From positions 67,631,534 through 67,695,533 of the forward strand of contig OX381719.1 of assembly GCA_947462335.1 (NCBI GenBank): a stretch of DNA of 64,000 nucleotides, read 5' to 3'. Positions 16,851 to 64,000 of this stretch are shown one piece after another. The notes beneath the pieces were generated by a model that was given only the letters and a program-made list of their open reading frames with translations, was not told the DNA's origin and did no database searches. This DNA is from Harmothoe impar (Eukaryota > Annelida > Polychaeta > Phyllodocida > Polynoidae). Numbering within the stretch: position 1 is the stretch's first letter; every line of letters begins with the position of its first letter. Both the position numbers and the translations under genes were made by a program.

Positions 16851-16856
16851 AATCAA
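16851..16856. repeat. Target-site duplication AATCAA, left
   Basis: AATCAA directly precedes the E1 tip AGTAGTAG and is repeated directly after its other tip at 26037-26042. Six bases is the size reported for Polintons. Confidence 0.85.
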
Positions 16857-17330
16857 AGTAGTAGTATAGTATGTATCGGAACGGGACTATAGTTAAGTAC
16901 TGTTTATTACTCAATCGACATGCAGCCAATCAGAGGCCTCCATTTGGTCACGTGACCGGAAGTGACCTACTTAGGGGATTGGTGGTGACGTCACGTGCCC
17001 TAGTTAGCCAATCAGAGGCCGCCATTTGGTCACGTGACCGGAAGTGACGTCATATGACCTACTTATGGACTGGAAGTGACGTCATATGACCTACTTAGGG
17101 GACCGGAAGTGACGTCATATGACCTAATTTAGGATCACGTGACCGGAAGTGACCTGATGAGTCACGTGACCGGAAGTGACGTCACATGACCTAATGGCCA
17201 ACCGGAAGTGAGTGACCTCATTGAGGATCACGTGACCGGAAGTGACCTGATTGATCACGTGACCGGAAGAAGAAGTGACGTCACGCGACTTAATGAAGAG
17301 ATGAGCGTCTTTAAGGGGTCACGCGCTTTA
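16857..17330 (+). promoter_or_regulatory. E1 left terminal repeat: E-box/ETS/CRE array
   Basis: The outer ~85 bases match the right tip. The rest is an array of TCACGTGACCGGAAGTGAC units (five exact plus one interrupted), joining an E-box CACGTG, an ETS site CCGGAAGT and often a CRE TGACGTCA, plus CCAAT-type GCCAATCAGAGGC. The same array, about 98% alike by eye, forms the left end of E2 at 59544-60010. It would suit an enhancer/promoter and replication end. Factor binding is inferred from consensus only. Confidence 0.8.
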
Positions 17331-17352
17331 AAATGTGATATCTTTTTTTTTT

Positions 17353-17429
17353 GGAGGAGGAGGAGGAGGAGGAGGAGGAGGAGGATGAGGAGGAGGAGGA
17401 GGAGGAGGAGAAGGAGAGGAGGAGGAGGC
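17353..17429 (+). repeat. (GGA)n microsatellite
   Basis: Nearly pure GGA repeat with a GAT and a few AAG interruptions. Arg/Glu/Gly-rich frames over it are artefacts. Confidence 0.95.
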
Positions 17430-17555
17430 GAGTCTCTTATTTTTTTCGGTAAACTAATAAAAAACACTACGATATAAGTTGTTTTTTTTTTTTCATTTTT
17501 TATTGTTTTACGAGCGACTGGAAGTGACTTATTGAACTAGGTAGAAGCGTTCTTT

Positions 17556-17745
17556 AGAGTGTATAAGGAGGGGAGGGAAGGGAGGGGAGGGGAGGGAAGG
17601 GGAGGGGAGGGGAGGGGAGGGGGGGGGAGGGAGGGGGGCCCCTTTAAGATGCATGGGGAGGGGGGCGCTTTTAGGATGCATGGGGCGGGTGGGGGGGAGG
17701 GGGGCACTCTAGGGGGGTGGGGGGGCACTCTAAGGGGCGTTTGTT
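17556..17745 (+). repeat. G-rich tract of Polinton end
   Basis: Runs of GGGGA and GGGGGG with repeated GATGCATGGGG and GGGGGGCACTCTA. The complement of this tract occurs in E0 at 5640-5780, so it is a family feature of this Polinton end. It has G-quadruplex potential. Confidence 0.8.
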
Positions 17746-17787
17746 TTCTTTTTTAAGAAAAAAAAGAAAAGAAAAAGATTTCAATCG

Positions 17788-17829
17788 AGAGACACGCTTC
17801 TTCCTCTCGAGAGGAAGAAGCGTGTCTCT
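17788..17829. repeat. 42-base perfect palindrome, no spacer
   Basis: Centred between 17808 and 17809 on CTCGAG. Every base pairs outward to 17788/17829. Arms carry AGAGACACGCTTCTTCCTCTC and its complement. E2 lacks it at the matching point (GAAGAAGAAG repeat instead), the right end of E1 keeps only a half-like AAGAGACACATTTCTTC, and E0 has a different palindrome there. Possible cruciform, replication or packaging signal; function is inferred. Confidence 0.9.
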
Positions 17830-18521
17830 TCATTTTTTTTTGTTTAGGAAGTGAGGGTCTTTAGGATCACGTGACTGGAAGCGACTTGATGAAGCATGTG
17901 ACTAGAAGTGACGACGTCACATGCTTTAATGAGGCGATCAGCTGTGACTGGCGGCGGCGGCGGTAGCGGCGGCGGTGGTGCTGGTGGTGGTGGTAGTAGA
18001 CGTTACTGTGGTCAGAGGTGATATGGTTTTTTTCCAACAGAAATCAGAGCTTTTATACAGAGGGAGTTTAATCCTATTTCCAACAGCACCCCAGCTGTCC
18101 AGCAGCCGCTCCGCTCCGTAAGAGCTTCTTAAGAGCTTAGATGACGAGGGGTATGTCATCGCCATCTGTGGTGGCCAGCTGAAAATGGTGTTTTTTCCTT
18201 ATCCATTAGCCTTACCTCCTACCCCCTACCTGAGGACGACTCTCTCCCCCTTTGGCATTCATTGTAACAAACGTCAGAGGTCAGGTGAAAATCGGATTTT
18301 CATGCACAGCCTTAGTCAGCTGTCACCCCTATTGAACTAGCCGGCCGCCGCCGGCCGGTCTACTCACCACGGCAGGAGGCGGTGATTTTTTTTTGTTTTA
18401 CACTTAAGTCGCTCACCACATGCACACGACTCTACTCACAGACAGACACACCCGTCTTAGGGGGTCCTGCTTCACACTACACGCCTCCTGTAGTTTTTTG
18501 TATACACACTCTAAGCTCATG
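17830..18521. other. E1 interior: enhancer tail, GGC/GGT repeat, GC-rich hairpin
   Basis: Further CACGTGAC-type sites, then (GGC)/(GGT) repeats at 17950-18000. The repeats give a Thr/Ala-rich tail to a 75-residue minus-strand frame (18165-17938) that I do not accept as a gene without other support. A GGCCGCCGCCGGCCGG hairpin lies near 18340. The matching place in the remnant at 58390-58500 also has GGC/GGT-type repeats. Confidence 0.45.
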
Positions 18522-18872
18522 ACTGCTTAATCCTTTATACAGCTAATGCGCGTTGAATTAGCACAGTCGGTACACCGCCCGCTCATGGCAGTCGATCTCT
18601 CAAAAAAAAAGGGGGAAAGAGATTCAGCTGAAAACGTCATGACTTATGTCTTTTGTTTCTCTTTGTGAATGTCCGCCGGTCAGCCGGCGGCAGCAACTGC
18701 TTAATCCTTTATACAGCTAACGCACGTTGAATTGCTGAACAAGGCAGTAAGTAGCTTAGCTCATGTCAGTCGATCTCTCAAAGGGGAGGGGGAAAGGGCT
18801 CCAGCTGAAAACGTCATGCCTTATGTCTTTTTGTTTCTCTTTGTGAATGGCCGCCGGTCAGCCGGCGGCAGC
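18522..18872 (+). promoter_or_regulatory. Duplicated ~174-bp upstream segment
   Basis: 18522-18695 and 18696-18872 are tandem copies. Both share ACTGCTTAATCCTTTATACA, CAGTCGATCTCTCAAA, CAGCTGAAAACGTCATG and a terminal hairpin GCCGCCGGTCAGCCGGCGGC (clearest at 18850-18869). They lie directly upstream of the TATA box of the alanine-rich gene, so they probably act as a doubled enhancer or operator-like module. Confidence 0.75.
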
Positions 18873-18915
18873 TGAACAGAGCCGTAAGTAGCTTAGCTCT
18901 AGAAGCGAGAAGGAG

Positions 18916-18922
18916 TATATAA
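18916..18922 (+). promoter_or_regulatory. TATA box of the alanine-rich gene
   Basis: TATATAA lies 63 bases before the ATG at 18979. Initiator-like TCACTCACTCAGTC follows at about +25 to +35. This supports 18979 rather than the in-frame ATG at 18958, which would fall close to the expected transcription start. Confidence 0.65.
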
Positions 18923-18978
18923 GGGGGCTAGAAACACCCATTCACTCACTCAGTCTTTTGCTGCTCTCTACAGTCACC

Positions 18979-19291
18979 ACCATGAGCAAAACACAACAAC
19001 TAGTGTCGTCCAAGGATCTAATCGAGTTCAAGAACAAGAAGAGTACGCAGAACGGTGATCGTTTACCGTCAGCGTCTCCTCTTGCTACTGAAATTGAGAC
19101 TACCGCCGCAACCGCTTGGTCTTATCACCCTCCCCCTGTAGCGAGCGCACACAGCAGTAGTAGTGGTAGTAGTAGTCGTCGTGGTAGCGACGTTGTTACA
19201 CTCGCGACGGTTGTTGCTGCTAAGCACGCTGCTGCTGCTACTGCTGCGCCTGCTGCGGCTGCTGGTGATCCTCGTGCTGCTAGTGCTGCTG

Positions 19292-19322
<31 letters not shown>

Positions 19323-19432
19323 GCCTGCTACTGCTGCGCCTGTTACTGCTGCGCCTGCTGAGGCTGCTGCGCCTGCTGCTGCTGTGCCTGCTACTGCTGC
19401 GCCTGCTACTGCTGCACCTGCTAGCGCTGTGC

Positions 19433-19464
<32 letters not shown>

Positions 19465-19803
19465 ACACCTCTTGCTGGGACTGCCGCTACTAGTACTGAC
19501 ACTCAGCAAGTTGCACAGAACCTCTCCACCGCTACATCAACCGACGCCATCAACGCCGCTCGCGCTGAGACTTACAGCTATTCGGACACTCAGCCCCAGC
19601 AGCGCGTAGTAGACATACATGCCCTAAAGCAACAGGGTGAGACAGAGAACGACGCTGACGACGAGGCGTACGAGGAACCCGAAGGGTTACGGGCGCACAG
19701 TCCGTTTTTCGACCTCATTTCCACTGGTAGCGCGTCCGGTCCGTGGCGACTGCCCTCACCACCACCTTACGAAGTTGTGTGGTTCCGACAACGAGTCTTC
19801 TGA
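18979..19803 (+). CDS. Alanine-rich protein with PPPY motif (N-part of Death-domain gene)
   Basis: Start chosen at ATG 18979 (CACCACCATGA context, MSKTQQLV). The ~270 residues have a basic N-terminal 40, a Ser/His linker, about 130 residues that are mostly Ala with Pro/Thr (GCT/GCG codon runs), an acidic stretch (NDADDEAYEEPEG) and a PPPY motif near the end. PPPY-type motifs bind WW domains and serve as late-budding or trafficking signals in several viruses; a role here is inferred. The frame ends at 19803. The protein-like sequence goes on in the +1 frame from about 19785, so a one-base lesion or a programmed frameshift lies there. Confidence 0.65.
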
Positions 19804-20176
19804 TACCAGCGCAGACGCTGCTCCTGTTATTGGTTCTGCTGCAGTAGTACCTGTATCATCATACTTCAAAGCAGAGCCGTTAGGATACTTGTCAGACGCT
19901 ATGCTACTGAAAATAAGTAGTAAGTTGCCGACATCAGATTACATACGGTTAGGTTCATACCTTGAAGTGAACTTGAAGGATATGGGATATCTCAGTTGTG
20001 AGACAAGTGTCATAACTCAAGCTAGAGAAATGTTCACTACTTGGTACCAGAAAAGTTGTACTACTAGGTGGAAGGACCTAGCCGCCGCCTTGGAAGAAGC
20101 TTACCGTATGGACCTCATCAAATTCTCACGTGAGTACATGGACAAGCATGACATGTGGGATGGCTTAGAGAGTTGA
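19786..20176 (+). pseudogene. Death-domain-like segment 1 (frame +1 of the alanine-rich gene)
   Basis: After a Ser/Asp-rich linker (SDNESSDTSADAAP) comes about 95 residues with a six-helix Death-fold pattern: LSDAMLLKISSKLP, then DYIRLGSYL, an Asp/Gly turn, a FTTWYQKS helix where Death domains carry their conserved Trp, and WKDLAAALEEAYRMDL. It ends with a TGA at 20174-20176, in the same frame as the next Death-domain segment. No ATG at its start suits independent translation. The domain call rests on helix and Trp spacing, so it is less sure than segment 2. Confidence 0.55.
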
Positions 20177-20179
20177 GAC

Positions 20180-20512
20180 ATGGAGTGGAAAGTGCAGAAA
20201 TATTTCTCTCTTTTAGCTGAGCTCTGCCCTAGAGACTGGAAGACCATAGGGATCTACTTAGGGTTGACTTCTCATGAAGTAGCTTTCATCTCTCAACCTG
20301 TGCCTTCTGACAGGACTGTGAAGAACCCTGTCTATGAAGTGCTGAGAGCTTGGAAGTACAACGAGACGTCTGAGCCTATGGCTCTGATGAAAGTGTTGCA
20401 AGACGACATGGGTCGCAGCGACGTCGCAATGTATGTTCAAGGGTTGTATGCAGCTGTACCCAAAGACATAAAAGTGAGCTGTGACACTCCAGTGTTGACC
20501 ACTCTCGTCTGA
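20180..20512 (+). CDS. Death-domain protein, segment 2
   Basis: 110 residues from ATG 20180, one codon after the TGA that closes segment 1 and in the same frame. The pattern fits the Death domain well: PRDWKTIGIYLGLTSHEV, then VYEVLRAWKYNE with the conserved Trp, then LMKVLQDDMGRSDVAMYV. Death domains join receptor and adaptor proteins in apoptosis and NF-kB/Toll-type signalling by self-association. A mobile-element copy could interfere with host cell death, but this is inference. Either it is a small separate protein or the second half of a tandem protein with a stop between. Confidence 0.72.
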   Translation: MEWKVQKYFSLLAELCPRDWKTIGIYLGLTSHEVAFISQPVPSDRTVKNPVYEVLRAWKYNETSEPMALMKVLQDDMGRSDVAMYVQGLYAAVPKDIKVSCDTPVLTTLV

Positions 20513-20678
20513 TCCCTGCAGTAAGATGGACATCTGTTGAATTCGATCCTAGACTACAGTCGCCTTTCACTATGCTAATAGTATCGTGTGGTAAGAGGCG
20601 TCTAGTATTCGAAGTGATAAATAACGTTTATTTTTTTAATAATTGGTAAATAAGTGAAAAAACAAAAAAAACAAAAAC
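20513..20678 (+). other. Short intergenic stretch, A/T-rich
   Basis: Separates the Death-domain gene from the polymerase. AT-rich with ATAAATAACG and A runs, suited to 3' processing of the first gene and the start of the second. No canonical AATAAA noted. Confidence 0.4.
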
Positions 20679-22590
20679 ATGACGCAGGACGTTTGCGAAA
20701 AGTGTTTCAAAATTTTTAAAAGACCGTACAATCACGAGTGACCCGTAGAAAAATGAAGAACAATACCTAAGTTTTGCCCTCTATGCGGCGATGTCGATTG
20801 CTGAAAAGATCACCTGTCGACGCGAATCTCTGGACGAGGTGACTATCCCTCTACGTACATGCGCTGTACCGAACGGTGAGGAAACGTTCACGGCGAATTG
20901 GCCTGCAATACGAACGAGTGTCAGGATGCACGGGACTCGCGTGAGTGTAACAAACGTCAAACTACCAACCGGCGAGTTGAGTGACGCTGTAGATACTATG
21001 CGTCGCAATCTGCTTCACACAATGATAAAAGTGGGTTTCTCGGTAGGCTTACTCTTACAACACAGAGAAGACAAGAGCATACTGCGCTACTTTCACGTCT
21101 CCCAGAACAACGCAACTCTCATTACAACCGCTCCCTACTATAACTAATTCAGAAACTTTAGAAGAGCTCCTCTCAAACATGGAAAACACCGTCGCTTGCG
21201 AGGAAGTACGGAAACTTTGCGACGCTGACACCAAGCGGTGCGCTCTTTTTCCTACTAATTTTGAACATTTGCGTTTACATGGGACCGGGGGGTTTTCCCA
21301 TAGGCGGTAGGAACAGTCAGGACGGTCGAGTTGGAAAGAGAAGCCGTGTGTTAGATTTTCCCAACAAGGACAACCTCTGTGTCTTCCGCCACATTTCCTT
21401 TCACTTATACAACACCAGCAAGTGCGCTTCAAATTTGTTACGTCAGTTCTGTCCCGCTGCCACACGTGAAACTTTTCCTCCCGACGGACATTCCAGAATC
21501 TACCCTTACAACATTACCTTCGATTTCGAGGCTTTCTTCAGACCGTGCAGATGACCGTCGACCGAACACGTGTCCCTGCTGTGGGATCACGTCCCTTTGT
21601 CGGCTAGCGTCGCATACGACTTTCCGGGGTAGGAGGGGCAGTGTACGTCAGAGAATCCGACGCAGATTCCAACCCCTTGTTAGACCGAGTTTAAAATCAC
21701 ATAAACGAGAACGCCAAAGTCATCGAGAAAGCTGTGCTAGAAGTTTACCGACCAACGTTAGCGAAGTTACATGTGGCGATAGGTGAAGCTCTCCTGCTAG
21801 AGGAAGCGACATTCACCCCTTCTCCAGGCGGCTTCGCTGCAGCTCACACCAGACAACCGTTAGTTTAACTGAAGAAGCGGCTTCTGAGATACATCCGTCA
21901 AGCTCCAGTCGTAGGCTTCAACTCGGAGAGTTACGACTTGAACCTGATCAAAAATACGCCTTCACTCGTTCTTTGCCTCCGGAGACCGAAGAAACCAACA
22001 ATTCAGCGTCATAAAGAGAAGCAATCAATAGTTGACGGTTTACACACAGTTTTCTTGGACGTAGTAGTCAACTATTTGGCACTTGGTTACAGCTACGCGA
22101 ATTATTTGCGAGCTTTCACCAGAAACGAAGAGAAAGGTTGCTTTACTTACGAATGGATGACGTATACCAAGAAACAGGTAAACAGAACCCTGCCACCGAG
22201 ATCGGCTTTTGACAGCGAACTAACGGGCGTCAAAATGGCCGAAATCCGACTACGCCACATGTCAGAAAGTTTAGTATGACAAGTAGAAACAAACTATGAC
22301 AGATTTCTTGATCCACTACAACAACGAAGACGTCAAACCTTTCATAGAAGCTTTTGAAAAAATCACGCTAATTTTTTCCAAGATAGCAGCATTGTCATGT
22401 TGAAAGACGAGATCTCTCTCGCCAGTTTGACTTTACAGGTCCTCTTCCAAAAACCTATAAGCTGTGTTCACAACGTTCCCTCCGTTCGACGCCGTCCTCC
22501 ACGCTCTGATCAAAGAAAATCTAGTCAGTGGTCCTTCCATCATCTTCCATAGATTTCACGAGAAAGAGTGTATAGGTGTCTTATAAGTCG
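20679..22590 (+). pseudogene. Protein-primed DNA polymerase B, N-terminal half, broken
   Basis: Likely start at ATG 20679 (MTQDVCEKCFKIFKRPYNHE, a C2H2-like zinc finger), then frameshifts. Recognisable pieces match the E2 polymerase in order: VGFSVGLLLQHREDKS, FPTNxNICVYMGPG-like, FPNKDNLCVFR, the exonuclease block TFDFEAFFR, GFNSESYDLNLI, and LPPRSAFDSELTGVKM. About 330 bp present in E2 are missing near 21472. Several frameshifts and stops occur, one in a TAACTAA near 21145. The polymerase would replicate the linear element from a terminal protein. This copy ends at IFHRFHEKE, before the catalytic palm, and cannot work. Confidence 0.85.
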
Positions 22591-22851
22591 GCAGAGGGTG
22601 AATACTAGTGAAAAGGGAAGGCAAGTGTGCAAGTAGCTTTTTCTAACAGACACGTGTGTGAACTAAGCTGCTTAAGTCTAAACCCACCTGCGGTAGAAGC
22701 TCTGTACTGAGAGAGTCTTTTCAGCCGTTTAAGAGGCTTATCTAGGACAGGGTACATAAGGAGTGAAACGCCGCTCTCACCAGTCACACTTTCTCCACCC
22801 GCCCTTCATCTTCGTAGCATCGTCCACTCTACGCTCGCTCAGCACGTTACA
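22591..22851 (+). promoter_or_regulatory. Upstream region of the 283-residue gene
   Basis: No similarity to E2 is seen from 22591 on. A TACATAAGG box at about 22753 lies 100 bases before the ATG, with a pyrimidine-rich TCACACTTTCTCC stretch between, resembling the TATA-plus-initiator layout of the alanine-rich gene. Confidence 0.4.
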
Positions 22852-23703
22852 ATGATTAGTTCTGCTATTTTCTTTATTTATGAAAGTGTTGACGCTACAG
22901 AGCATCGAAACCCTCTCGAAATGAGTCCAAGAAAGAAAAAGCAACTCCCACTTGAAGCAAGAAGAGAAACAGTGCCCTATGATGCATGTGAGGTAAAGAA
23001 ACATTGGAAGGACGTCACCAAGGAGCAATGGATAGAAGCATGCTTCAACTTCATCGGAACAGTAGTTTCATTTGGACAGAGGGAGAAGATTTTGTTAGAG
23101 CTATTTTTTTTAGCTCCGTATACTTGGCCTGACTGTGGTGAAATTCCTTCAAGTTTGTCAGTCTTCGCCATACAAGTTATCAACTCCATGAAGGAGCTTC
23201 GATATATGCAAGGCACTCAGGAGGAGATTGTCAAGAAAATGACGGAATTCGAAACAGGCGAAGACACAATATGGTGCGAGGAGACGACATATGCGGACGA
23301 TGATCTGGAGTCCATCATTTGTAGCCCGTTGGAACATTATGTTAAAGACTTTGAGGACATGCTAGACAGCACTGAGATGAACCCGAAAGAGAGATCCCTT
23401 ACTGCACAGAAAGAGGCCAAAGCTGTGTTGGAAAAGCACAAGTTTGGTCAAGGATTCACTCTTCAAAGCAGCTGTGTGAGTGTGATAAAAAGTCTTGTGT
23501 TAAAACATTCAGACATGAAGTTTTCGCGTGCTGTCGACACACTTCCTTTGCCTGAACTGATGATGAACATGATCGACCCCATCGTACCAACACGTTTCGA
23601 CTCTGCCAATTGTCCCATGTATAAAATGGTTTCAAGTTTTGCCCGTGGCCGATGGCTAAACGATCCACTGAAGTCAGAAAACCTCCTTGATTTAATCAAC
23701 TGA
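22852..23703 (+). CDS. Unrecognised 283-residue protein in place of the polymerase core
   Basis: One open frame from ATG 22852 (ACAATGA context). A second Met at 22921 (MSPRKKKQL) is a possible start and would give a basic N-terminus. Composition is balanced, mostly helical, with no signal peptide or membrane segment. Landmarks: KHWKDVTKEQWIEACFNFIG, FLAPYTWPDC, an acidic WCEETTYADDDLE centre, a Lys/Glu helix around residue 190, and FARGRWLNDPL near the C-end. YADD here is not a reverse-transcriptase motif. The frame is intact among dead neighbours, which hints at recent arrival or selection. Function unknown. Confidence 0.6.
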   Translation: MISSAIFFIYESVDATEHRNPLEMSPRKKKQLPLEARRETVPYDACEVKKHWKDVTKEQWIEACFNFIGTVVSFGQREKILLELFFLAPYTWPDCGEIPSSLSVFAIQVINSMKELRYMQGTQEEIVKKMTEFETGEDTIWCEETTYADDDLESIICSPLEHYVKDFEDMLDSTEMNPKERSLTAQKEAKAVLEKHKFGQGFTLQSSCVSVIKSLVLKHSDMKFSRAVDTLPLPELMMNMIDPIVPTRFDSANCPMYKMVSSFARGRWLNDPLKSENLLDLIN

Positions 23704-23759
23704 CTAAATGTATTTTCTCATACTAGTATTAGTAGCATTAGTAATAGCGGCTACTCAGT

Positions 23760-24110
23760 CTCGTGCAGCACAAGCAGCAGCATCTGTCAGCAGCATCCGT
23801 GACATCGTCAGCAGCAGCAGCAGCTGCACAAGCAGCACAAGCAGCCACATCTGTCAACAGTATCCGTGACATCGTCAGCAGCTGCAGCAGCTGCACGAGC
23901 AGCGCAAGCAGCACAAGCAGTAGCATCTGTCAGCGGAATCCGTGACAACCTCAGCAGCCGCAGCAGCGGCTGCACGAGCAGCACAAGCAGCAGCATCTGT
24001 CAACAGCATCCGTGACAGCGTCAGCAACTACAGCAGCTGCAGCTGTCAGCAGCTGCAACAGCTGCACGAGCTGCACAAGCAGCAGCAGCAGCAGCGGTAG
24101 TGTAGACCGC
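23760..24110 (+). repeat. ~72-bp tandem repeat rich in GCA/AGC
   Basis: Four imperfect units. Each has ATCTGTCARCAGYATCCGTG, then a run of AGCAGC/TGCAGC and ACAAGCAGCACAAGC. In one frame it reads Ala/Gln/Ser with SVNSIRDIV. It could be the residue of an alanine-rich coding region like those at 18979 and 58601, but no long frame survives. Confidence 0.75.
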
Positions 24111-24387
24111 TAAATTCGAGATGACGTCATGTCTGTTTCTTAGCATCAACATTCAACCTGAGACCTAGTGACATTTGACATGAAGCTTAAAAAACATAGT
24201 GACAGGTGACATGAGCAATTCTTAAAATCGCCATGAGATATGAGCATAATTAAGCGACATCGACATGTGCCATGGCTATTTTTTTTTAAGACAAACGCCG
24301 TAGTCTCCTCATCCAGACCTCCGCTAGTAGCGCTCTATAAGCGCAAGCTGTGGCTGTGAACCCCCTCCTCCCACCGTACACACGGGT
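24111..24387. other. No recognisable feature
   Basis: Non-coding stretch with repeated GTGACATG/ACATGAG motifs. No gene or element is evident. Confidence 0.4.
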
Positions 24388-24778
24388 AAATATCAGAGTC
24401 GGCCAATGTCGCCAATACTACTCTCATACAAGGGTCAGGCGCTGCTGGACTATAATAGATGGGTCAAGGACTATTCTACTGAGGGTCAGGCTACGCCGGA
24501 CATTCAATAACAAGCTGGACTTTGGCAAATTTGCTTGAAAGTCTGGCCAGCAAGAGTCCAGCATACTCTCCCAAGAGTTCAGCATTGCCAGACTATGGCA
24601 TGAGGATCCCGCATGGTCAGACTTTCAAGCAAGTTTGCCAAACTCCGGCTTGTTATTGAATGTCCGGCGTAGCCTGACCCTCACTAGAATAGCCCTTGAC
24701 CCATCTATTATAGTCCAGCAGTGCCTGACCTTTGTCTGAGAGTAGAACTAGCGCTATTGGGTGCCTCTGATATTTGCC
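24388..24778. mobile_element. Fold-back MITE at the polymerase deletion junction
   Basis: Arms 24388-24545 and 24618-24778 are inverted copies, about 90% alike by eye, sharing CTGGACTATAATAGATGGGT and GGACATTCAATAACAAGC. The ends read AAATATCAGAG and CTCTGATATTT. The right end abuts the return of polymerase homology (near 24788), so this element may have taken part in the deletion. Confidence 0.8.
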
Positions 24779-25172
24779 TCTGTGTAGTCAAACCTCGCCT
24801 GAGAGAGACATACTTCAGAAAGAAACGAAAGCGGATTCCGACATCGGTGTGTGACGATCACTTAGAGCTTTTCGTGAAGATAAAAACTGAAAAAAAGTGC
24901 GAAAATAGTGTCCGCCGCCCGGCGGATGTTGTGAAAGACGTTACCTTCACGATCTGAGAACTTCGAGGCTTATGAAAGCGGCGTGAGAAGGTGACGGGAT
25001 CCTAAGTCTCAACCCTAAGACTTACATTTGCTACGATCGAGTCAGCGGCACCGGTGAAAGAAAATCCCAAAAAAAAAGATAGCGTGCAAAAAGTGTACAG
25101 AAGTAACAAAACCCTAAAGAACCAGTCGTCTTCTTAGATGTTTTCGAAAACGAAAAACTCTCCTTGCGGTAA
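24779..25172 (+). pseudogene. DNA polymerase B, C-terminal end, broken
   Basis: Homology to E2 resumes at VKPRLRETYFRKKRK, continues through DDHLELFVK and RRPADVV, and reaches the C-terminal NEKLSLR before the TAA at 25170-25172, with frameshifts between. The palm (about 450 residues in E2, holding DANSLY, the NATYG block and DTDS) is absent from E1. Confidence 0.8.
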
Positions 25173-25500
25173 ATAGAAATTTCAAAGTGGTACGAACCAA
25201 AAATGGACACTTACACCATAGAGAAAGATGACGTGCGCTACTTGTATTATAAGCGTCGCGTGCATTCTAACGGTGTGACAACGAGTCCTTTAAAATATGA
25301 AAAAAAGTGTGTTATTGATTGATTGAGCACATCTTTTCAAAAATAGCGTGTTTATTAGAATTGAAAAAAATAAAATAAAAAAATAAATAAAATTATTGTT
25401 GTGTTTTATTTTCATACGTCTTCTTTTATTAGTAAGTAAAAAAAATTATAACAATTAACTAGCGTGTCCTCTTAAAGTGACACTTCCTCCGGTCGCTGCT
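25173..25500. other. AT-rich spacer after polymerase
   Basis: AT-rich with repeated AATAAA-type hexamers at 25365-25400 that could serve as poly(A) signals. It is the inverse of 60060-60310 in E2. Confidence 0.6.
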
Positions 25501-26036
25501 GATCGCCTAATTAAGGCATGTGTCGTCGTCACTTCTAGTCACGTGACTCATCAGGTCACTTCCGGTCACGTGATCCTAAAGTCGATCACTTCCTAAACAA
25601 AATTAAATTAAGAGACACATTTCTTCATGACCCAACCAATCAGAGGTCTCCATTTGACCAGAAGTAGTCCCCTCATTTGCATAATGGGTCACTTCCGGTG
25701 TACCAGCCAATCAGAAGCCTCTAACTAAGTCAAGGTCACGTGACGTCACTTCCGGTATGCCCTTATATGGACATGTGAAGGTCACATGACGTCACTTCCG
25801 GTATGCCCTTATATGGGCATGTGACGTCACTTCCGGTCAAATGGAAGCCTCTGATTGGCTGAGTCATGACCTTGACCTCTAACTAGGTCAAGGTCACGTG
25901 ACGTCACTTCCGGTATGCCCTTATATGGGCATGTGACGTCACTTCCGGTCAAATGGAGGCTTCTGATTGGCTGCAGGTCGATTGAGTAATAAACAGTAGT
26001 TAACTATAGTCCCGTTCCGATACATACTATACTACT
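25501..26036 (-). promoter_or_regulatory. E1 right terminal repeat with CArG, ETS, CRE and TCAAGGTCA sites
   Basis: The outer ~85 bases are the inverse of the left tip. Further in, the motif content differs from the left end: three CCTTATATGG boxes (25761-25770, 25807-25816, 25919-25928; CArG/SRF consensus), ACTTCCGGT ETS sites next to TGACGTCA, two TCAAGGTCA half-sites, and CCAAT-type sequence. CArG plus ETS is the layout of animal serum-response elements. Binding is inferred from consensus. Confidence 0.72.
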
Positions 26037-26042
26037 AATCAA
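26037..26042. repeat. Target-site duplication AATCAA, right
   Basis: Second copy of the 6-bp duplication; see 16851-16856. Confidence 0.85.
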
Positions 26043-32920: not shown

Positions 32921-34177
32921 CTAGGTTACAGCCCCTCTAGCCACCAGCCTTGGGCTTCGCCGAACGGATTTACCGTCCGCCTCTCGTAACCTGGCCGAAG
33001 GACACTCGTTCTTAACTAAAACTCCAGCCTTGATTTTAGTTTTCCGTGCCCTTCTTCCTTCGCCTGCCAAGCCTTTCTTTTTCACGGTCTTTCGGAGCTT
33101 CTTTCGTACCACTCTTTTAGGGGGATCCACTGACACCCCTTCCAAAGGTACAAATTTAGCCTCCGAATTTCCCTTCTCCACCTCCGTTTCCGGGGTGAGC
33201 TCGCTTCCAGCCCAAGCACGCAACCGAGCCACATGGCTCGTCCGGATGCGTCCTGCTTCGGACTGAATCAACACAGTCGTTTGACTGATACATTTAACCA
33301 CGGTATGTGGTCCATCCCAGTTATTCACCAGTTTGACGTTGCAGAGCGGTTCGTGTAGGCGGATCACTCTATCCCCCACTACGAATCGTCGCAACTTCAA
33401 TCCGGTGTCGTAACCCACCTTCTGCCAATGAGCAGCTTTGAGCAAATGAGCCCTAACTGTTTCGTAGGCAAATTTGAACCTCTCTCGTAGAGATTCCACA
33501 AACAGCACAGTACATGGTGCTTCCGGACTGATCCCTACCACCCCGAATACTAAATCCGCCGGCATGATCAAGTCCTCTCCGAACACCAGGAGGTTCGGAG
33601 TGCAATTCGTCGAAGTGTGGACCGTATTATTATACGCATGAACCACAAATTCGCACTGATCATCCCAATCATCCATATGGGAGTTCACTAATGGCTTCAA
33701 AACCTGGATCAAGGTCCGATTGAACCGCTCCACCTGCCCGTCGGACTGTGGTCGGTACGGATTGGTCCGAGTTTTGCATATAGCCAACTGATGGCACATA
33801 GCTGTCCATAGTTTGGACTCAAATTCTCTTCCTTGATCGCTATGTGACATCAAGGGAGCCCCCAGATGGAGGATCCACCCCTTTACCAATGCTTCCGCAC
33901 AAGTAGCAGCAGTGTGATCCTCGAGTGGGTACACTCGGGTGTATTTCGTATAGTAGTCCGAGACCACCATCATACACGTATTACCTTTTGGAGTGGGTTT
34001 AACTCCACTGATAATGTCCACGGCTATTCGAGCAAAACTCACCCCGAATAGCTCTTGTTGCAGTGGCAATTTCCCTAGTCCAGGACCAGGTTTGCCTAAA
34101 CAACAGGCCGGACATGTCTCGATCCACCTTAAAAGGTCGCCCGACATGCCGGCCAATAATATCTCCGACTCAGCCAT
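32921..34177 (-). pseudogene. Gypsy 1 integrase
   Basis: 418-residue frame. The zinc-finger Cys pair (CPACC) is at the start; its His partners lie in the upstream frame. The core has the DD35E triad: Asp in IAVDIISG (about 55), Asp in SDQGREFES (about 114) and Glu in GQVERFNRT with 35 residues between. A chromodomain-free, basic C-terminus carries DRVIRLHEPL and GPHTVVK. The enzyme inserts element DNA. A one-base deletion near 34150 separates it from the rest of Pol, so it has no proper start. Confidence 0.9.
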
Positions 34178-34737
34178 TCCAACGAGCGTTTCTTTCCAAA
34201 ATGCCCACTAGTGGAATGGCCGTGGCAGTAGTACAGGATGTCTTTCCTCATAGCAGCAGGGATCACCATTTGTAATACCCTCCGCTTCCCGGGACAAGTC
34301 TTCCACCTGCACAACAACGAATCCCGGACCTCCAGTTCATGGAACTGAGCCAGGAAACGTCGCATTTCACGGTTTTCCAGTGATATTTCGGGTCTCACTG
34401 GACAGACCCCAGTAGGGACAAGCTCCCTCAGTCGTGCTATGGTAGGATCGGCCATCTGGTACGTCCTTATAGTGTCGGTGGACCAATCCAACAGGTTTTG
34501 CAACAACCCATCATAAGGCAAACGCACACTCGCTACCACAGCATTGTGAGCACCACAATCCCCACACTCCAGACGCACACAACAGCGTACCGGACGTCTA
34601 CTCAGACAGTCAGCATTAATATGCTTTGTGCCCGCTCGGTGCTGGATATGAGAGTTCTCCAGTCCGAACTCGCTGAGGTGATTCAACCACCGACCAATCA
34701 TTCCCTCTGCGTCCTTAAAATTAAGGAGCCACCTCAA
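34129..34737 (-). pseudogene. Gypsy 1 RNase H end and integrase zinc-finger half
   Basis: The frame follows a ~27-bp deletion, compared with gypsy 2, that removed the RNase H segment before LLNFKDAEG. It has HRAGTKHINADCLSRRP (RNase H end) and CHGHSTSGHFG with the His pair of the integrase zinc finger. It ends by frameshift at YYWP. Confidence 0.85.
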
Positions 34738-35816
34738 GGCCGAATGATCGGTAAGAAGTGCCGAAACTTCTTCGTGTACACCACTACTGCGAGCAGCTCT
34801 CGCTTTGTATTACAATAATTTCTCTGTGCCTTGTTCATACTGTTACTAGCGAACGCCAGCGGGACCTCTAATTTGTCCTGGATTTGGGACAATGCAGCCC
34901 CGATGCTCTCATTGCTGGCATCAGTGTCAAGGATGAAATGCCCCTTCTCCGTAGGGTATCTCAGCACCGGGGTGGTTCGGAACAACGCCTTAATCTCTTT
35001 GAAGGCTTCATTCTGCTCCATCCCCCATGCGAAGGGTACTTTTTTCCTCCCCGGAGTCCAATGGCTCAACCGTTGCAATTGCTGAGACACCCTAGAGAAT
35101 CCGGGGATAAAGTCCCTGTAATAGGAACAGAACCCTAAAAAGGATCTGACATCCTTTGGTCCCTTTGGAACTTCCCAAGTCTCCACAGTCTCCAATTTAG
35201 CCGGATCAGCCTGCACACCCTCGGTGGAGATGATCCGGCCCAAATAGACCATGGACTTCCGAAAAAGTTCACATTTCTTTGGCTTTAATGTCAAGCCATT
35301 GGACCGAATTCGCTCCAACACCTCTCCGAGGTTCAACGCACACTCTTCAAACGTCTTGCCGAAAACAATGACATCATCCAAGTACACCAAGCACTTGCGC
35401 CACAACAGATCACTCAACAGAGTTTCCATCATAGCCTCAAAAGTGGCCGGAGCGTTGCACAACCCGAAGGGCATCAGCTCAAACTGATACAGTCCAATGT
35501 GACTTGTAAAAGCCGTTTTCTCTTTATCCTCCTCCTTCATCCAGATCTGCCAATATCCGGACTGCAAATCAAGGGTGCAGAACCATTGGTTCCCACCCAA
35601 AGAGTCCAGGGTCTCATCGATCCGGGGGAGAGGATATGCATTCTTCTTGGTTACCCCTTTCAGGCGCCTATAATCGATACAAAATCGGATAGACCCGTCC
35701 TTCTTAGTAACCATCTGGACCGGACTGGACAAGGGGCTAGTGCTAGGCACGATCACCTTCTGTTCCAACATGGTCTTCACTTGTTCCTCAACCACTGCTT
35801 TCTTACCCAAAGGCAA
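34734..35816 (-). pseudogene. Gypsy 1 reverse transcriptase and RNase H
   Basis: 360-residue frame with FCIDYRRL, LDLQSGYWQI, the catalytic YLDDVIVF (about 145), FLGFCSYYRDFI and the RNase H start LDTDASNESIGAALSQ. Polymerase and RNase H convert the genomic RNA to DNA. Upstream Pol (36341-35820) joins by frameshift, and the end is lost with the deletion at 34734. All polymerase catalytic residues are present. Confidence 0.92.
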
Positions 35817-35819
35817 GCG

Positions 35820-36341
35820 TCAGTAAGGCATTTTGAACGGCTGTGCATCACCCGTATTGATAGAATGCAACACTTTGTCGGTTCGGCCCAAAGGCTCCCC
35901 CTCCACCTGCCATGCATCCTGATACTTCACTACCAGCCTCCTTAGGGAGTCGAGATCCCTCCGATCCGTCAGATCCGTTTCGGAGATCATTTTCTCGAGT
36001 CCCGCACTCAAAGCGGTCGGAGAAGGGTCACCCTTCATGCTCACCTGCCCAGCAGGCATCACTGCCTCACTGGTGAACACCTTCCCCAGTACTGTATCTT
36101 TCTTTAGATACTTCGGTTCTAACCCGGGGTTAGAAACCGGAACCACGGTCCAAGCACCATCACCCACCAGGGTGTCCATGCCTGTCAAACCGATACTACC
36201 CAACATGGCCACATCCGGCTCCACAACTGCCTCTTCCTCTCTCCTAAGCCCCTTGCTTCGGACCAGCACGTCACACGTCTGTCCGGGAGGAATCTTTACA
36301 GTTTGGACCACCGTTGCCACTGTTGACACTTGTCGGAGCAC
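35820..36341 (-). pseudogene. Gypsy 1 protease-RT linker
   Basis: It continues Pol after the protease stop (VLRQVSTVATVVQTVKIPPG through LGRTDKVLHSINTGDA), with no catalytic motif. Gypsy 2 has the same segment, there split by a 332-bp insert. Confidence 0.75.
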
Positions 36342-36419
36342 ACATTGCTCTACCGCACGGTACGCGTGCTCTATCAGGAGTACCCCTGTACCAGGATTCA
36401 GGACCGCGTCATATAACGC

Positions 36420-37060
36420 CTAAAAGTCCAATCCCAGTATACCGTCGTCTGCAATATCCGCAATGGTGGGAGAAGCCACATACTCCTTCCCTCCAATTCG
36501 GAGCGGTATGAACGCGCCCCCATACGTCTGCATACTTGACCCATCGGCCGAACAGGCGTTTACCCTCGTTTTGAAGTTTTCACGACTGTCCGGCATAAGA
36601 GCATAGAAGTTAGAGGAGATAAAGGAGTGGCTAGCTCCCGTATCTACTAAAAATTCGCCCGCTCTACCGGCCACAGTAACAGACACATACCACCCCCTCC
36701 CCCCACGCGGAGACGGGTTTACAGTGAAGCGTTTAAAATCCTTCGGAGCAGCCAAATCAAGGCCATGTTTCTTCAAATGGTCGAAACATGGATGATCCGG
36801 GGAAAGCTGGGTACTCCCTACCCACACGGTGTCTGTGACAGCCACAACTTCCTCGTTCCTATCCGTAATGGGCCTCCCTGCCTCATTGCCGGGCAATTGT
36901 TGGACTGGAATGTTAACCAGGCCGGCATCCGGGCCCCTCAAGCTCGAAGCCACCCCTGATTCCCTTCCTGCCTTCGGAATTTCACTAGGCTCTACCTCTC
37001 TGGTATGTTGGCGTACTTCATCTCCAGGGGTCGTCCGCTCGCCTTCTCGGACTACCCCCT
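36420..37060 (-). pseudogene. Gypsy 1 aspartic protease
   Basis: The frame is open from the gag end (slippage point 37064-37070) through the retroviral-type active site FLVDTGASHSFIS and the ILGLDF block, where a TAG at 36420-36422 stops it. Gypsy 2 has no stop there. The protease cleaves Gag and Pol. Start by -1 frameshift from gag is more likely than an independent start. Confidence 0.85.
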
Positions 37061-51984: not shown

Positions 51985-52643
51985 AGGGGGTGGTCCGAGC
52001 TGGCGAGCGGACGGCCCCTGGTGATGAAGTACGCCAACCTACCAGAGAGGTAGAGCCTAGTGGAGTTCTAAGGACAGAAAGGGAACCAGGGATGGCTTTG
52101 AACTTAGGAAGTTCGGATGCTGGCCCAGTTAACATCCCAGTCCAACAGTTGCCCGGCAATGAGGCAGGGAGGCCCATTGCGGACGGGGACGAGAAAGTCG
52201 CGGCTGTCACTGACATCGTTTGGGTAGGGAGTACCCAGCTTTCCCCGGATCATCCATGTTTCAACCATTTGAAGAAACATGGCTTCGATTTGGCTGCTCC
52301 GAAGGACTTTAAATGCTTCACTGTAAACCCGTCTCCACTGGGGGGGCAATGGTGGTATGTGTCTGTTACTGTGGCAGGTACGGCAGGCGAGTTTTTAGTA
52401 GATACGGGAGCGAGCCACTCCTTTATCTCCTCAAACTTCTTTGCTCTTATGCCGGGTAGTCGTGGTAACTTCAAAAAGAAGGTAAGCGACTGTTCAGCCG
52501 ATGGGTCAAGTATGCTTATGGGCGCGCGTTCATACCGCTCCGGATTGGAGGGAAGGAGTATGTGGCTTCTCCCACCATCGGGGAAATTGCTGATGACAGT
52601 ATACTGGGGTTGGACTTTGCGGCGTTATATGGCACGGTCCTGA
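51960..52643 (+). pseudogene. Gypsy 2 protease
   Basis: Pol lies in the -1 frame relative to gag and overlaps its end. Active site FLVDTGASHSFIS is kept. A frameshift near 52520 moves the end (ILGLDFAALYG) to the frame that runs on from 52562. Confidence 0.82.
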
Positions 52644-52966
52644 ATCCTGGTACAGGGGTACTCCAGATAGAGCACCCGTACCGTGCGGTGGAGCAGTGTG
52701 TGCTCCGACAGGTGTCAACAGTGGCAACGGTGGTCCAAACTGTGAAAATTCCTCCCGGAAAGACGTGTGACCTGCTGGTCCGAAGCAAGGGGCTTAGGAG
52801 AGAGGAAGAAGCAGTTGTGGAGCCGGATGTGGCCATGTTGGGAAGTATTGGTCTGGTGGGCATGAACACCCTAGCCGGTGATGGTGCTTTGACCGGGGTG
52901 CCGGTTTCTAACCCTGGGTTAGAGGCTAAGTATCTGAAAAAGGATACTGTGTTGGGGGAGGTGTTC
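52562..52966 (+). pseudogene. Gypsy 2 protease end and protease-RT linker
   Basis: Contains ILGLDFAALYG, the VLRQVSTVATVVQTVKIPPG linker and KKDTVLGEVF, where the 332-bp insert interrupts it. Confidence 0.75.
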
Positions 52967-59543: not shown

Positions 59544-60010
59544 AGTAGTATAGTATGTATCGGAACGGGACTATAGTTAACTACTGTTTATTACTCAATC
59601 GACATGCAGCCAATCAGACGCCTCCATTTGGTCACGTGACCGGAAGTGACCTACTTAGGGGATTAGTGGTGACGTCACGTGACCTAGTTAGCCAATCAGA
59701 GTCCACCATTTGGTCACGTGACCGGAAGTGACGTCATATGACCTACTTATGGACCGGAAGTGACATCATATGACCTACTTAGGGGACCGGAAGTGACGTC
59801 ATATGACCTAATTTAGGATCACGTGACCGGAAGTGACCTGATGAGTCACGTGACCGGAAGTGACGTCACATGACCTAATGGCCAACCGGAAGTGAGTGAC
59901 CTCATTGAGGATCACGTGACCGGAAGTGACCTGATTGATCACGTGACCGGAAGAAGAAGAAGAAGAAGAAGAAGTTTTTTGTTTAGGAAGTGAGGGTCTT
60001 TAGGATCACG
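59544..60010 (+). promoter_or_regulatory. E2 terminal repeat: E-box/ETS/CRE array
   Basis: Nearly identical to 16857-17330 (about eight differences seen over ~420 bases), including the TCACGTGACCGGAAGTGAC series. It ends in a GAAGAAGAAG repeat where E1 has its long G-rich tract and palindrome. Confidence 0.82.
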
Positions 60011-60059
60011 TGACTTGAAGCGACGTCGTCACATGAGTGATGCTTTAAGAGACTGCGCG

Positions 60060-60314
60060 ACTTACTAGTAAAAGAAGACGTATGAAAATAAAAACACAAC
60101 AATATTTTATTTTATTTTTTTATTTCTTTTTTTTTCAATCTTGATAAACATTTTTGAAATGATGCACACGCTTATTTTTTTTTTTTTCATATCTCTAAAG
60201 GACTTGTTGTCACACCGTCAGAATGCACGCGACGCTTATAATACAAGTAGCGCACGCCGTCTTTCTCTATGGTGTAGGTGACCATTTTGTTTCGCACCAC
60301 TTTGAAATTTCTAT
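60060..60314 (-). other. AT-rich 3' region of the E2 polymerase
   Basis: T-rich on the plus strand, giving AATAAA-type words on the minus strand just after the polymerase stop; likely poly(A) region. Confidence 0.6.
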
Positions 60315-63300
60315 TTACAGCAATGAGAGTTTTTCGTTGGCGAAGAACATCCAAGAAGTCGTCTGGCCCTTAGGGTTTTGTTTCTTCTGTACGCCTTTTG
60401 CACTCCATTTTTTGGATTTTCTTTCACCGGTGTCGCTGACTGGATCGTAGCAAATGTTAGTCTTAGGGTTGAGACTTAGGATCCCGTCACCTTCCCACTC
60501 CGCTTTCATAAGCCCCGAAGTTCTCAGATCGTGAAGGTACCGTCTCTCACAACATCCGCCGGGCGGCGGACACCATTCTCGCACTCTTTCCGTTTTTGTC
60601 TTCACAAAAAGCTCTAAGTGATCGTCGCACACCGCTGTCGGAAGCCACTTTCGTTTCTCTCTGAAGTACGTCTCTCTCAGGCGAGGTTTGACTAGGTCAT
60701 CCAACGTGTCACCGCTGAGAGCCATGTAAAGACTGTCGGTGTCCATTTGACAAAGGGCATAATCGCGCCGATCGACGAATCTATCCAAGAAGTCGTATGT
60801 GAACTCTAACATTTTCAACTTCGCGTACTGGTATACCATGAACCCTATTTGAATAGGGAGGTTGTTCTTGACTGTTTTCGGTTGTAGTTCGACTTCAAAC
60901 AGATCGGAACTCAACTCGGACGCCTTTTTGAAGCGCCACGAATTGGCCAATAGTTCGAACTTCCGACTGTCAGTGTATCTCACCGCCGTGTGTTTTTCTT
61001 TGTTGCAGATTGTTTTACCGTATGTAGCGTTTCCCATTAACTTGTAACAGTCTGACAGAATTTTCTCGTTCTCGTTCACGTCGCCACGTCTTCGCGCCGC
61101 CGTTACTTCGTCCGCGAAACCGGCAAAGGAGCGTTTAGGTAGGTATTCTACGACCAGCTGCACTTTGGTGACTATCAAACCGTGCTCTAAATACCACTTG
61201 AGAAGCGGCGTTCCCAAGAGAATATTTTTTCCGTGGTAACTCCCTATCAGACATCTCTGAGGCGTGTTCAACAGCTTTTCTTCCTGCGCAAAGTCTGACA
61301 TGTGAGGTCCTATGTCCGATTTTGAAACGGTCGCGTTCTTGAAAACGGGGGTCATTTCTTCGAAGTAGTCTCGTAGGTGAGGCGGCGTAGTGATGTCCAC
61401 TTGAACTAAACCGAACATTTTCTCCTCTTTCACAGCGGAAAGGATGTCGCTCTCGCTCATCGCGTTTCGAGACACTTTCAAAGCGTCAACCTTCCAGCGT
61501 TGTTGGGAGACCTTGACCCGCTCATCTCGACGCTTCATCTCTAGCCATTCGCACTCCCACACGACGACCAGCTTGTGACCTAGCGCTTTCAAGTAAGCGC
61601 TTACTCTAGTCGTTCTGTCGCGTCTCTCCTCTCTCAGTGAAGCGCACTGATATCGGTGTGACGGTATGCACTCGTGAGCGTGGAACCAACACCCGTGAAA
61701 CTGGAAAACCGTATTAGAGGCCGCGTGAAACCCGTCCACGCAAATTCTCCGACAGCCTACAACCATCTCGCCGCCGTTCAAAGCGTGGCGCAGTTTCACG
61801 TCGCGGTCGTGCTCTACGAAGCGTAACCACTCCAAAGCGCTGTGAGAGTTTCTTTGCCTAATTTCGGGCTTGAACTCGGTCTCAGGCCGTCTCACCGCGT
61901 AATAGCCCGTGCAGTGCGCTTCGCTCATGCAGCGCAAGTACAGAGAGTTAGCGTCTAGTCCTAGGATGTGTTGGCACGGTCTCGCTTCTTCGCCGTACTT
62001 GTGCTCCCTTATCCGCGTGGTGCCCTTCTCGTGAAATCTATGGAAGATGATGGAAGGACCGCCGACTAGATTTTCTTTGATCAGAGCGTGGAGGACGGCG
62101 TCGAACTGGGGGAACATTGTGAATGCGTCTTCTAGGTTTTGGAAGAGGAACCGTAAAGTCAAACCAGCGAGAGAAACTCCGTCTTTCAACATGTCAATGC
62201 CGCGATCTTGGAAAAATTTAGAGTGATTTTTCAGAGCTTCTATGAAAGGTTTGACGTCTTTGTTGTTGTAGTGGATCAAGTAATCTTCCATAGTTTGCAT
62301 CTTCTCGTCGGACCAAACTTTCTGACATGCGGCGTAGTCGGATTCGGACATTTTGACGCCCGTCAGCTCGCTGTCAAAAGCCGATCTCGGTGGCAGCGTT
62401 CTGTTTGCCAGTTTCCTGGTAGACGTCATCCATTCGTAAGGAAAGTGACCTTTCTCTTCTTTCCTGGTGAAAGCTCGCAAATAGGTCGCGTAGTTGTAAC
62501 CGGGTGCCAAATAGTTGACTACGTCCAAGAAAACCGTGTGCTGTGTGTAAACCGCCAAGTATTGATTGCTTCTCTTTATGACGCTGAATTCTTGGTTTCT
62601 TCGGTCTCCGGAGGCAAAGAACGAGTGAAGGCGTATTTTGATCAGGTTCAAGTCGTAACGCCCCGAGTTGAAGCCCACGACTGGAGCTTGACGGATGTAT
62701 CTCAGAAGACGCTTCTTCAGTTGAACTAACGGGTGTCTGGTCTGAGCCGCAGCGAAGCCGCCTGGAGAAGGGGTGAATGTCGCCTCCTCCAGCAGGAGAG
62801 CTTCACCTATCGCCGCATCTTACTTCGCTAAGGTCGGTCGGTAAAGTTCTAGCACAGCTTCCCCGATGACTTTGGCGTTCTCGTTTATGTGATTTAAAAC
62901 TCGGTCCAACAAGGGGTCGGAATCTGCGTCGGATTCTCTGACGAAGCAGACGGGCCCCTCCCACCCCGGAAAGTCGGATGCGACGCTAGCCGACAAAGGG
63001 ACGTGATCCCACAGCAGGGACACGTGTTCAGTCGACGGTTCTTTGCACGGTCTGAAGAAAGCCTCGAAATCGAAGGCGATCTTGTAAGGGTAGATTCCGG
63101 AATGTCCGTCGGGGGGAAAAATGAAGAAGTCTGCTAGCGCTTCGAAAATCGTTCTCGAATTTTGGTAGATGCCACCTACGTAGCGCAACTTGACTTGTTG
63201 GCAAGAGGAAAGCTGGTTCCTGTGTCTCTTCAGCAAGAACTCGGTGGTGAACGCAGCCTTACACTTGCAACATTCGTATATGCCCGCGTACGCGTTGAAA

Positions 63301-64000
63301 TCTGTGACGAGAGAGACGTGCAAACCGCCTTTCGCCGTCAGGTGTAGGTTGACTTTACCTTGGGCGGCCAGAGTTCTGGAAGGCGGTCTGATCAGAGTAA
63401 CGCGTCTTCTCAACTTCCGCCCCGGCACTTGACGCGACGCGGTGTAAACCGCTATTTGTACGTCAAACAAGCTCTCTAACGCGGGTAAGTCGCGGATGTT
63501 CAGACCCGGAAAGGATTCAGGTGTGGCAGCGGGACAGAACTGACGTAACAAATCTGAAGCGCGCTTGCTGGTGTTGTATAAGTGAAAGGAAATGCAGCGG
63601 AAGATGCAGAGGTTGTCCTTGTTGGGAAAATCTAACACGCAGCTTCTCTTTCCAACTCGACCGGCCTGAGTGATCCTACCGCCTATGGGGAATTCCCCCG
63701 GTCCCATGTAAACGCAAATGTTCAAATTGGTAGGAAAAAGAAAGTGCCACTTGGTGTCAGCGTCGCAAAGTTTCCGTACTTCCTCGCAAGCGACGGTGTT
63801 TTCCATCTTTGAGAGGAGCTCTTCCAAAGTTTCTGAATTAGTTATAGTAGGGAGCGGTTGTATGAGAGTTGCGTTGTTCTGGGAGGCGTGAAAGTAGCAC
63901 AGTTTGCTCTTGTCTTCTCTGTGTTGTAAGAGTAAGCCTACCGAGAAACCCACTTTGTATCTGAATCTTTGTGTCAAGTGAATGCAACGCATAGTATCTA
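60315..64000 (-). pseudogene. E2 protein-primed DNA polymerase B, one nonsense codon
   Basis: One frame covers 64000 to 60315 (about 1228 codons, N-terminus outside the window), broken only by a TAA at 62822-62820, where E1 has TTA. N-part: a Cys-rich FPNKDNLCIFRC block with OTU-protease-like spacing, a CCKCKAAF...KRHRN zinc finger, exonuclease FDFEAFF (about 63060-63080) and GFNSGRYDLNL. C-part: LGLDANSLYL (about 61930-61958), KLMGNATYGKT (about 61018-61047) and CQMDTDSLYM (about 60724-60750), the three palm motifs of family B. The type fits Polinton/adintovirus polymerases that copy linear DNA from a terminal protein. Catalytic residues are intact. Confidence 0.9.

Follow-up and report, generated by a model that had tools for sequence, protein, structure and literature searches.

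The DNA examined here, a stretch of 64,000 nucleotides of the polychaete annelid Harmothoe impar (GenBank assembly GCA_947462335.1, contig OX381719.1, positions 67,631,534 to 67,695,533, forward strand; hereafter, the window), contains a mobile element, E1, that carries a gene for two adjacent Death domains (DD1 and DD2), along with relics of a DNA polymerase gene (PolB) and an open reading frame (ORF) resembling SOCS-box proteins (Table 1). E1 spans positions 16857-26036 and is flanked on either side by AATCAA (16851-16856 and 26037-26042). Its ends are of the Maverick type, with AGT repeats on the left, ACT repeats on the right, inverted repeats, and a 6-bp target-site duplication; the left end has one AGT too many, and the duplication in the window is exact after a shift of 3. 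The inverted repeats pair 17814-17954 with 25486-25626 (85%) and 16859-17125 with 25733-26037 (71%).

Mobility of E1 and its tandem Death-domain gene

A search of the genome (1.51 Gb) with DD2 yielded 2693 candidates. Scoring covered 150 of them, the copy number being a lower bound, and all 150 match DD2 at 99-100% identity. Ends and duplications were surveyed in the window and 20 fetched loci, 12 of which (the window and 11 loci) are full-length, a complete end pair being absent in 9. In each of the 12, the Death-domain gene lies between the same ends, at different sites, and the 6-bp duplications are exact in 11 (10 at the expected place, plus the window allowing for the extra AGT); at the locus L017, 5 of 6 positions match, within a C-run. 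The first-pass annotation of this DNA, made from the letters alone, had placed the gene inside a sharply bounded Polinton-type element, and both the boundaries and the location stand, no full-length copy having the segments in host DNA outside the ends; as a refinement, E1 is a high-copy derivative with a broken polymerase rather than an autonomous Polinton. A reading of the Death-domain gene as a host gene is ruled out by the target-site duplications. The terminal repeats of E1 and of a second element, E2, are arrays of CACGTG, GGAAGTGA, and TGACGTCA (16857-17275, 25733-26036, and 59544-59959), which we take to be of the E-box, ETS, and CRE types; GGAAGTGA occurs 10 times at the left end of E1, 8 times at the right end, and 9 times in the terminal region of E2, and is absent between the two ends of E1. 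At another locus (L028; G000:C7:53806000-53815900), pieces of E1 form a tandem array with a period of ~2.9 kb, each unit including the Death-domain gene region.

The window copy of the gene is damaged. Its alanine-rich frame, which contains PSPPPYEV and is preceded by a TATA-like site at 18916, stops early and is offset from the Death-domain frame, in which DD2 continues DD1 past a single TGA. This layout, as originally described, is accurate for the window sequence: because two other copies, read whole, are uninterrupted, each with a single frame of 531 or 535 aa from stop to stop that comprises the alanine-rich/PPPY part, DD1, and DD2, the stop and the frame break are lesions of the window copy. 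Among the scored copies, the open frame reaches at least 490 aa in 105, 400-489 aa in 8, and is shorter in 37. Just 5' of the TATA-like site lies a tandem duplication of 178 bases (84%; 18522-18872).

Both proposed Death domains are recovered by the Pfam Death profile (PF00531, curated cut-off 22.6 bits). DD2 scores 32.1 bits (E 1.3e-7), and DD1, taken as the 182-aa frame, scores slightly below the cut-off (21.2 bits, E 3.2e-4) and above it (22.8 bits) when trimmed to 82 aa in the sequence of another copy. The uninterrupted copies reach 46.0 and 46.1 bits, with two matching stretches each, and among the element proteins the profile matches 6 of 6 DD1s and 7 of 7 DD2s; on these profile matches, the predicted tandem of Death domains in the E1 gene is confirmed. 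Pfam detects no other family at E <= 0.1 in the two uninterrupted copies, and no effector domain. Searched against the PDB, the tandem profile retrieves FADD first (2.8e-10) and RIPK1 next (4.8e-8), the DD2 profile alone retrieves FADD (5.3e-9), and the DD1 profile alone yields matches of modest significance (E 1.7e-4 to 0.006) to the Death domains of ankyrin-2, RIPK1, and FADD. AlphaFold models from single sequences are of low confidence (predicted local distance difference test, pLDDT, 43.8 for DD1 and 54.7 for DD2); six helices are present in the DD2 model, and the top ten of its 57 Foldseek matches are all Death domains, none of the 57 being significant (best E 0.42).

The alignment of the whole profile across the boundary in FADD between the death effector domain (DED) and the Death domain prompted a reading of DD1 as a DED, which is rejected because DD1 alone matches Death domains. 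One of six DD1s matches DED, at E 0.051, and some match bDLD3, a bacterial Death-like domain, below its cut-off. Comparison of DD1 with DD2 by BLASTP yields nothing meaningful. Outside this genome, no candidate homologue has three 5-residue words in common with DD2, only similarly short proteins being eligible, and none of 1520 candidates matches residues 230-505 of an uninterrupted copy at E <= 1. In viral contigs, the pattern matches to the Death-domain queries (4, 21, and 5) and to PolB (1) include none that was confirmed.

Table 1. Features of E1 and of the neighboring element E2, in window coordinates
Feature	Position	Strand	Basis
Left target-site duplication, AATCAA	16851..16856	.	shift of 3 for extra AGT
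Left terminal region with inverted-repeat stretches, starting AGTAGTAGTATAG	16857..17954	+	inverted-repeat pairing
Alanine-rich frame beginning at ATG, with PPPY close to the end, stopping early in the window copy	18982..19803	+	reading frame; homology to E2 alanine-rich protein
Death domain 1	19895..20140 (frame 19628-20176)	+	PF00531, 21.2 bits; 22.8 when trimmed in another copy
Death domain 2 and stop	20177..20512	+	PF00531, 32.1 bits
PolB relic, N-terminal part, with gap and frame breaks	20673..22564	+	homology to PolB of related elements
283-aa open frame, SOCS-box-like, inside former PolB gene	22852..23703	+	alignment to neighbors and two motifs; no Pfam match
PolB relic, C-terminal part	24785..25437	+	homology to PolB of related elements
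Right terminal region with inverted-repeat stretches, finishing ...CTATACTACT	25486..26036	-	inverted-repeat pairing
Right target-site duplication, AATCAA	26037..26042	.	same 6 bp as on the left
Part of E2, PolB in two offset frames	59544..64000	-	related element; tandem Death-domain gene outside the window (L029 7690-8493)

Chimeric composition of E1 and relatives of its genes

The composition of E1 becomes apparent from two related elements. E2, which is complete in L029 with the target-site duplication AACATG, encodes an alanine-rich/PPPY protein, a PolB split over two offset frames, and, as a gene of its own, a tandem Death-domain protein (Death 34.1 bits). In its near relative E3 (L030-L031), PolB is one 1380-aa frame, with DNA_pol_B_2 above cut-off, and the alanine-rich protein ends in a PC4-like domain at 23.7 bits (cut-off 25), the E2 counterpart reaching only E 0.14. 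Homology links the alanine-rich frame of E1 to the alanine-rich E2 protein, the two aligning at 57% over 346 columns (E 3e-100). When E1 is mapped on E2, the stretch holding the tandem Death-domain gene of E2 is missing, a tandem Death-domain segment stands in place of the C-terminal half of the alanine-rich gene, and 2.2 kb carrying the SOCS-like ORF in place of the PolB center, the remaining PolB being out of frame. These alignments show E1 to be a chimera, in which an alanine-rich/PPPY N-terminus with homology to the one in an alanine-rich, PC4-like protein of related elements is joined to two Death domains.

The PolB pieces of E1 are broken by stops and indels in every copy compared (22/22, 20/20, and 17/17). 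Because nine frame-breaking indels (4, 3, and 2 in the three pieces, among 22, 20, and 17 copies) are common to at least 80% of the copies, the E1 founder probably lacked a working polymerase before it began to spread. No match to an integrase, capsid, ATPase, or protease emerges from a Pfam scan of 8 plus-strand frames of E1, minus-strand and shorter frames lying outside the scan. Named relatives of PolB come from Littorina, Nucella, Holothuria, Branchiostoma, and Lytechinus.

As profile matches and neighboring genes show, relatives of the tandem Death-domain gene occur elsewhere in this genome in four further types of Polinton-type element, near a Polinton polymerase or an adenovirus-type protease, and two of the four also carry SOCS-box genes. 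L032 and L033, which are close relatives of each other (tandem Death domains at 52.4 and 52.2 bits), each encode an adenovirus-type protease above cut-off and show weak similarity to a double jelly roll (E 0.04 and 0.024); in L034 (61.8 bits), a PolB frame lies downstream on the same strand, open over the part read. Within the roughly 9-kb stretches read, these three loci show no inverted repeats. L048 holds a further uninterrupted tandem pair, and decayed relatives are present as well. A DUF5662 gene lies near the tandem gene in L032 (3225-3887, 76.7 bits) and L033 (5195-5800, 79.8 bits).

Six aligned tandem Death-domain proteins show 23-31% identity with that of E1. In a tree of 26 Death domains, built from short rows and with 5 of 23 inner branches strongly supported, the element DD1s cluster together (82/73), as do the element DD2s (93/88); of the nine sampled non-element domains, seven fall apart from them, L046 lies beside the DD1s, and L038 is unplaced. 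The pattern fits a single old tandem pair. Because the E1 pair is closer to those of L032-L034 (28-31%) than to those of E2 and E3 (23%), it was probably acquired from another element lineage.

The SOCS-like ORF of E1 also has counterparts. ORFs beside the tandem genes of L032 and L033 match SOCS_box (PF07525, cut-off 23.5 bits) at 23.9 and 24.9 bits, and two more ORFs of L033 reach 18.0 and 21.5. The 283-aa ORF of E1 aligns with these at 20-24% and has at its C-terminus what we take, by consensus, to be a BC box and an LPLP motif, a pair that occurs in 1 of 20000 shuffles; a stop interrupts the ORF in 2 of 19 copies. Between this ORF and the PolB tail lies a fold-back of ~410 bases, 83% self-complementary (24377-24786).

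Elsewhere in the window, two related long terminal repeat (LTR)-type retroelements (32921-39139 and 49674-56027) lie in inverted orientation, with long arms that are 79-91% complementary, and adjoining the second is an 80-aa minus-strand frame (57516-57758) with GPFSCIISGPSGCGKSRLVNQF that, by eye, resembles a Polinton packaging ATPase.

Variation among copies and possible roles of the two proteins

The copies compared for signs of selection were ranked beforehand by DD2 protein identity, and the values for DD2 variation are biased because of this ranking. Non-CpG differences per site amount to 0.0037 in DD1, 0.0038 in the SOCS-like ORF, and 0.0009 in DD2, compared to 0.0079-0.0154 in the PolB relics and the spacer between the Death-domain gene and PolB. 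The contrast is blurred by other stretches, namely, the upstream region (0.0093), the region upstream of the SOCS-like ORF (0.0065), positions 24120-24370 (0.0053), the 57 bases after the SOCS-like ORF (0.0019), the coding N-terminus (0.0077), and the PPPY linker (0.0076). Indels relative to the window copy are found in 0/21 copies for DD1, 0/22 for DD2, and 1/19 for the SOCS-like ORF, compared to 11/22, 10/19, and 8/17 for the PolB relics; the spacer, with 20/21, may include a change private to the window copy. The ratio of nonsynonymous to synonymous polymorphism (pN/pS) is 0.30 (0.15-0.89) in the linker and 0.84, 0.64, and 0.49 in the PolB relics, with overlapping intervals. These comparisons are suggestive of selection, not proof of it.

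The reading we favor, to which we assign a probability of roughly 0.58, is that Polintons deploy a Death-domain decoy and a Cullin-5 adaptor against host death or alarm signaling, E1 being a derivative moved in trans. With Death domains that resemble those of FADD and RIPK1 and without an effector domain recognized by Pfam, the tandem protein might act as a decoy that enters host FADD/RIPK1-type Death-domain assemblies and blocks the recruitment of caspases or kinases. The SOCS-like protein would recruit Elongin BC-Cullin 5, leading to the removal of a host protein, and E1 itself would depend for copying and integration on enzymes that related elements supply and that work on the ends they have in common. 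In favor of this reading count the long frames in 105 of the 150 scored copies, set against a PolB that no compared copy has intact, as well as the FADD and RIPK1 matches, the recurrence of the tandem gene in other element types, the SOCS_box matches beside it in L032 and L033 together with the motif pair in the E1 ORF, and the scarcity of indels in DD1, DD2, and the SOCS-like ORF. Several points weigh against it: the interference with host cell death is something we infer, and the helper enzyme is putative; the 283-aa ORF of E1 has no match to Pfam SOCS_box; and pN/pS is 1.10 in DD1, with a very wide interval, 1.63 (0.53-5.25) in the N-terminal 60 codons, 0.35 (0.18-0.71) in the SOCS-like ORF, overlapping the intervals of the PolB relics, and zero in DD2, a value biased by the ranking of copies on DD2 identity.

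More tentatively, the tandem Death-domain gene could be an old accessory gene of the Polintons of this animal, its domains having been paired before the element lineages split. E1 would then be a satellite that exchanged its polymerase for a SOCS-box gene and the tandem gene of another lineage, spreading through control of the host cell with borrowed replication; we consider this fuller history possible, at somewhat less than even odds.

A competing explanation is that the Death-domain and SOCS-like genes were caught in Polinton recombination and spread, without function, by efficient ends. The copies differ little (about 1-2% in the relics), so that a recent burst could keep the frames open, and a pN/pS in DD1 that is indistinguishable from 1 likewise speaks for passengers rather than for a decoy. 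However, the tandem gene turns up again in elements of other types, some of which also encode a polymerase, a protease, or SOCS proteins, and within the same copies DD1 and the SOCS-like ORF vary less than the PolB relics in both differences and indels, which makes this explanation unlikely. A structural or replicative role, whereby the Death domains multimerize a protein of the element that derives its N-terminus from a PC4-like, single-stranded-DNA-binding protein, appears less likely still: the tandem gene of E2, E3, L032, L033, and L034 is a separate frame without the alanine-rich N-terminus, and the PC4-like half is the very part missing from E1, even though the N-terminus of E1 is homologous to that of the E2 alanine-rich protein, the E3 version has the PC4-like end (at 23.7 bits, short of its cut-off of 25), and late domains are known to contain the PPPY motif. 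Death domains polymerize, and a tandem pair could nucleate host assemblies and thereby trigger cell death or inflammation, but an endogenous element inserted in a great many places would do damage by killing host cells, and Pfam finds no effector domain, so that such an activator is quite improbable. Least credible is that the copies are retained for a contribution of the protein to host defense, such as signaling against other viruses: Death domains act in defense too, and long frames are kept in many copies, but mobile elements carry the gene, at numerous sites whose duplications differ, and it also occurs in elements with a polymerase of their own.

Known systems and implications

The tandem protein has parallels among viral proteins. 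The v-FLIPs, inhibitors of caspase-8 assembly with tandem DEDs, and viral pyrin-domain proteins are Death-fold modules without an effector domain, as the tandem protein of E1 appears to be; it differs in that both of its domains are, by profile, Death domains, neither DED nor pyrin, so that a tandem DED is not found. FADD and RIPK1 provide the top PDB matches of the tandem profile, and FADD that of DD2, whereas the E1 protein has two Death domains, with no DED or kinase found by profile; the order of FADD, a DED followed by a Death domain, is not seen, DD1 being a Death domain by profile, and the likeness is at the level of the domains. Viral adaptors of the SOCS-box/Elongin BC-Cullin 5 type include Vif and adenovirus E4orf6; likeness to these comes from the SOCS_box matches above cut-off in L032 and L033 and from the presence of both motifs in the E1 ORF, and the difference lies in an N-terminal part without a recognized family and in an E1 ORF without a Pfam SOCS match.

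As for the element itself, PMC8097293 describes vertebrate Mavericks with repeated AGT/ACT ends and a 6-bp duplication, intact ones being 12.7-24.6 kb long. E1 resembles Polintons/Mavericks (Polintoviricetes; adintoviruses) in its AGT/ACT ends, inverted repeats, 6-bp duplication, and PolB relics homologous to the PolB of related elements, and differs in its length of 9.2 kb, in having a broken rather than an intact protein-primed PolB, and in its Death-domain and SOCS-like genes. A link between cell-death adaptor domains and invertebrate transposons has a parallel in TRADD-N genes, which, according to PMC8195603, are fused to or located near retrotransposons and Mutator-type transposons, although E1 carries another domain and belongs to another transposon class. 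We found no literature joining Polintons or Mavericks with Death domains, most subscription papers being outside the search; the main text of PMC11071296 contains none of the words death, SOCS, apoptosis, caspase, and Bcl, and that of PMC11071308 none of death, SOCS, and apoptosis.

If the favored reading is true, Death-domain mimicry would be added to the known cargo of Polintons. Polintons are relatives of adenoviruses, and the finding hints that, as viruses do, they face host death or alarm signaling. Among 18 Death matches of this genome, hand-picked from the 150 scored, 9 carry element DD1- or DD2-type sequence, which suggests that the large Death-domain repertoires of invertebrates may be partly viral. 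Moreover, an element with a dead polymerase, left with host-directed genes alone, would offer a testable case of a satellite within one genome.
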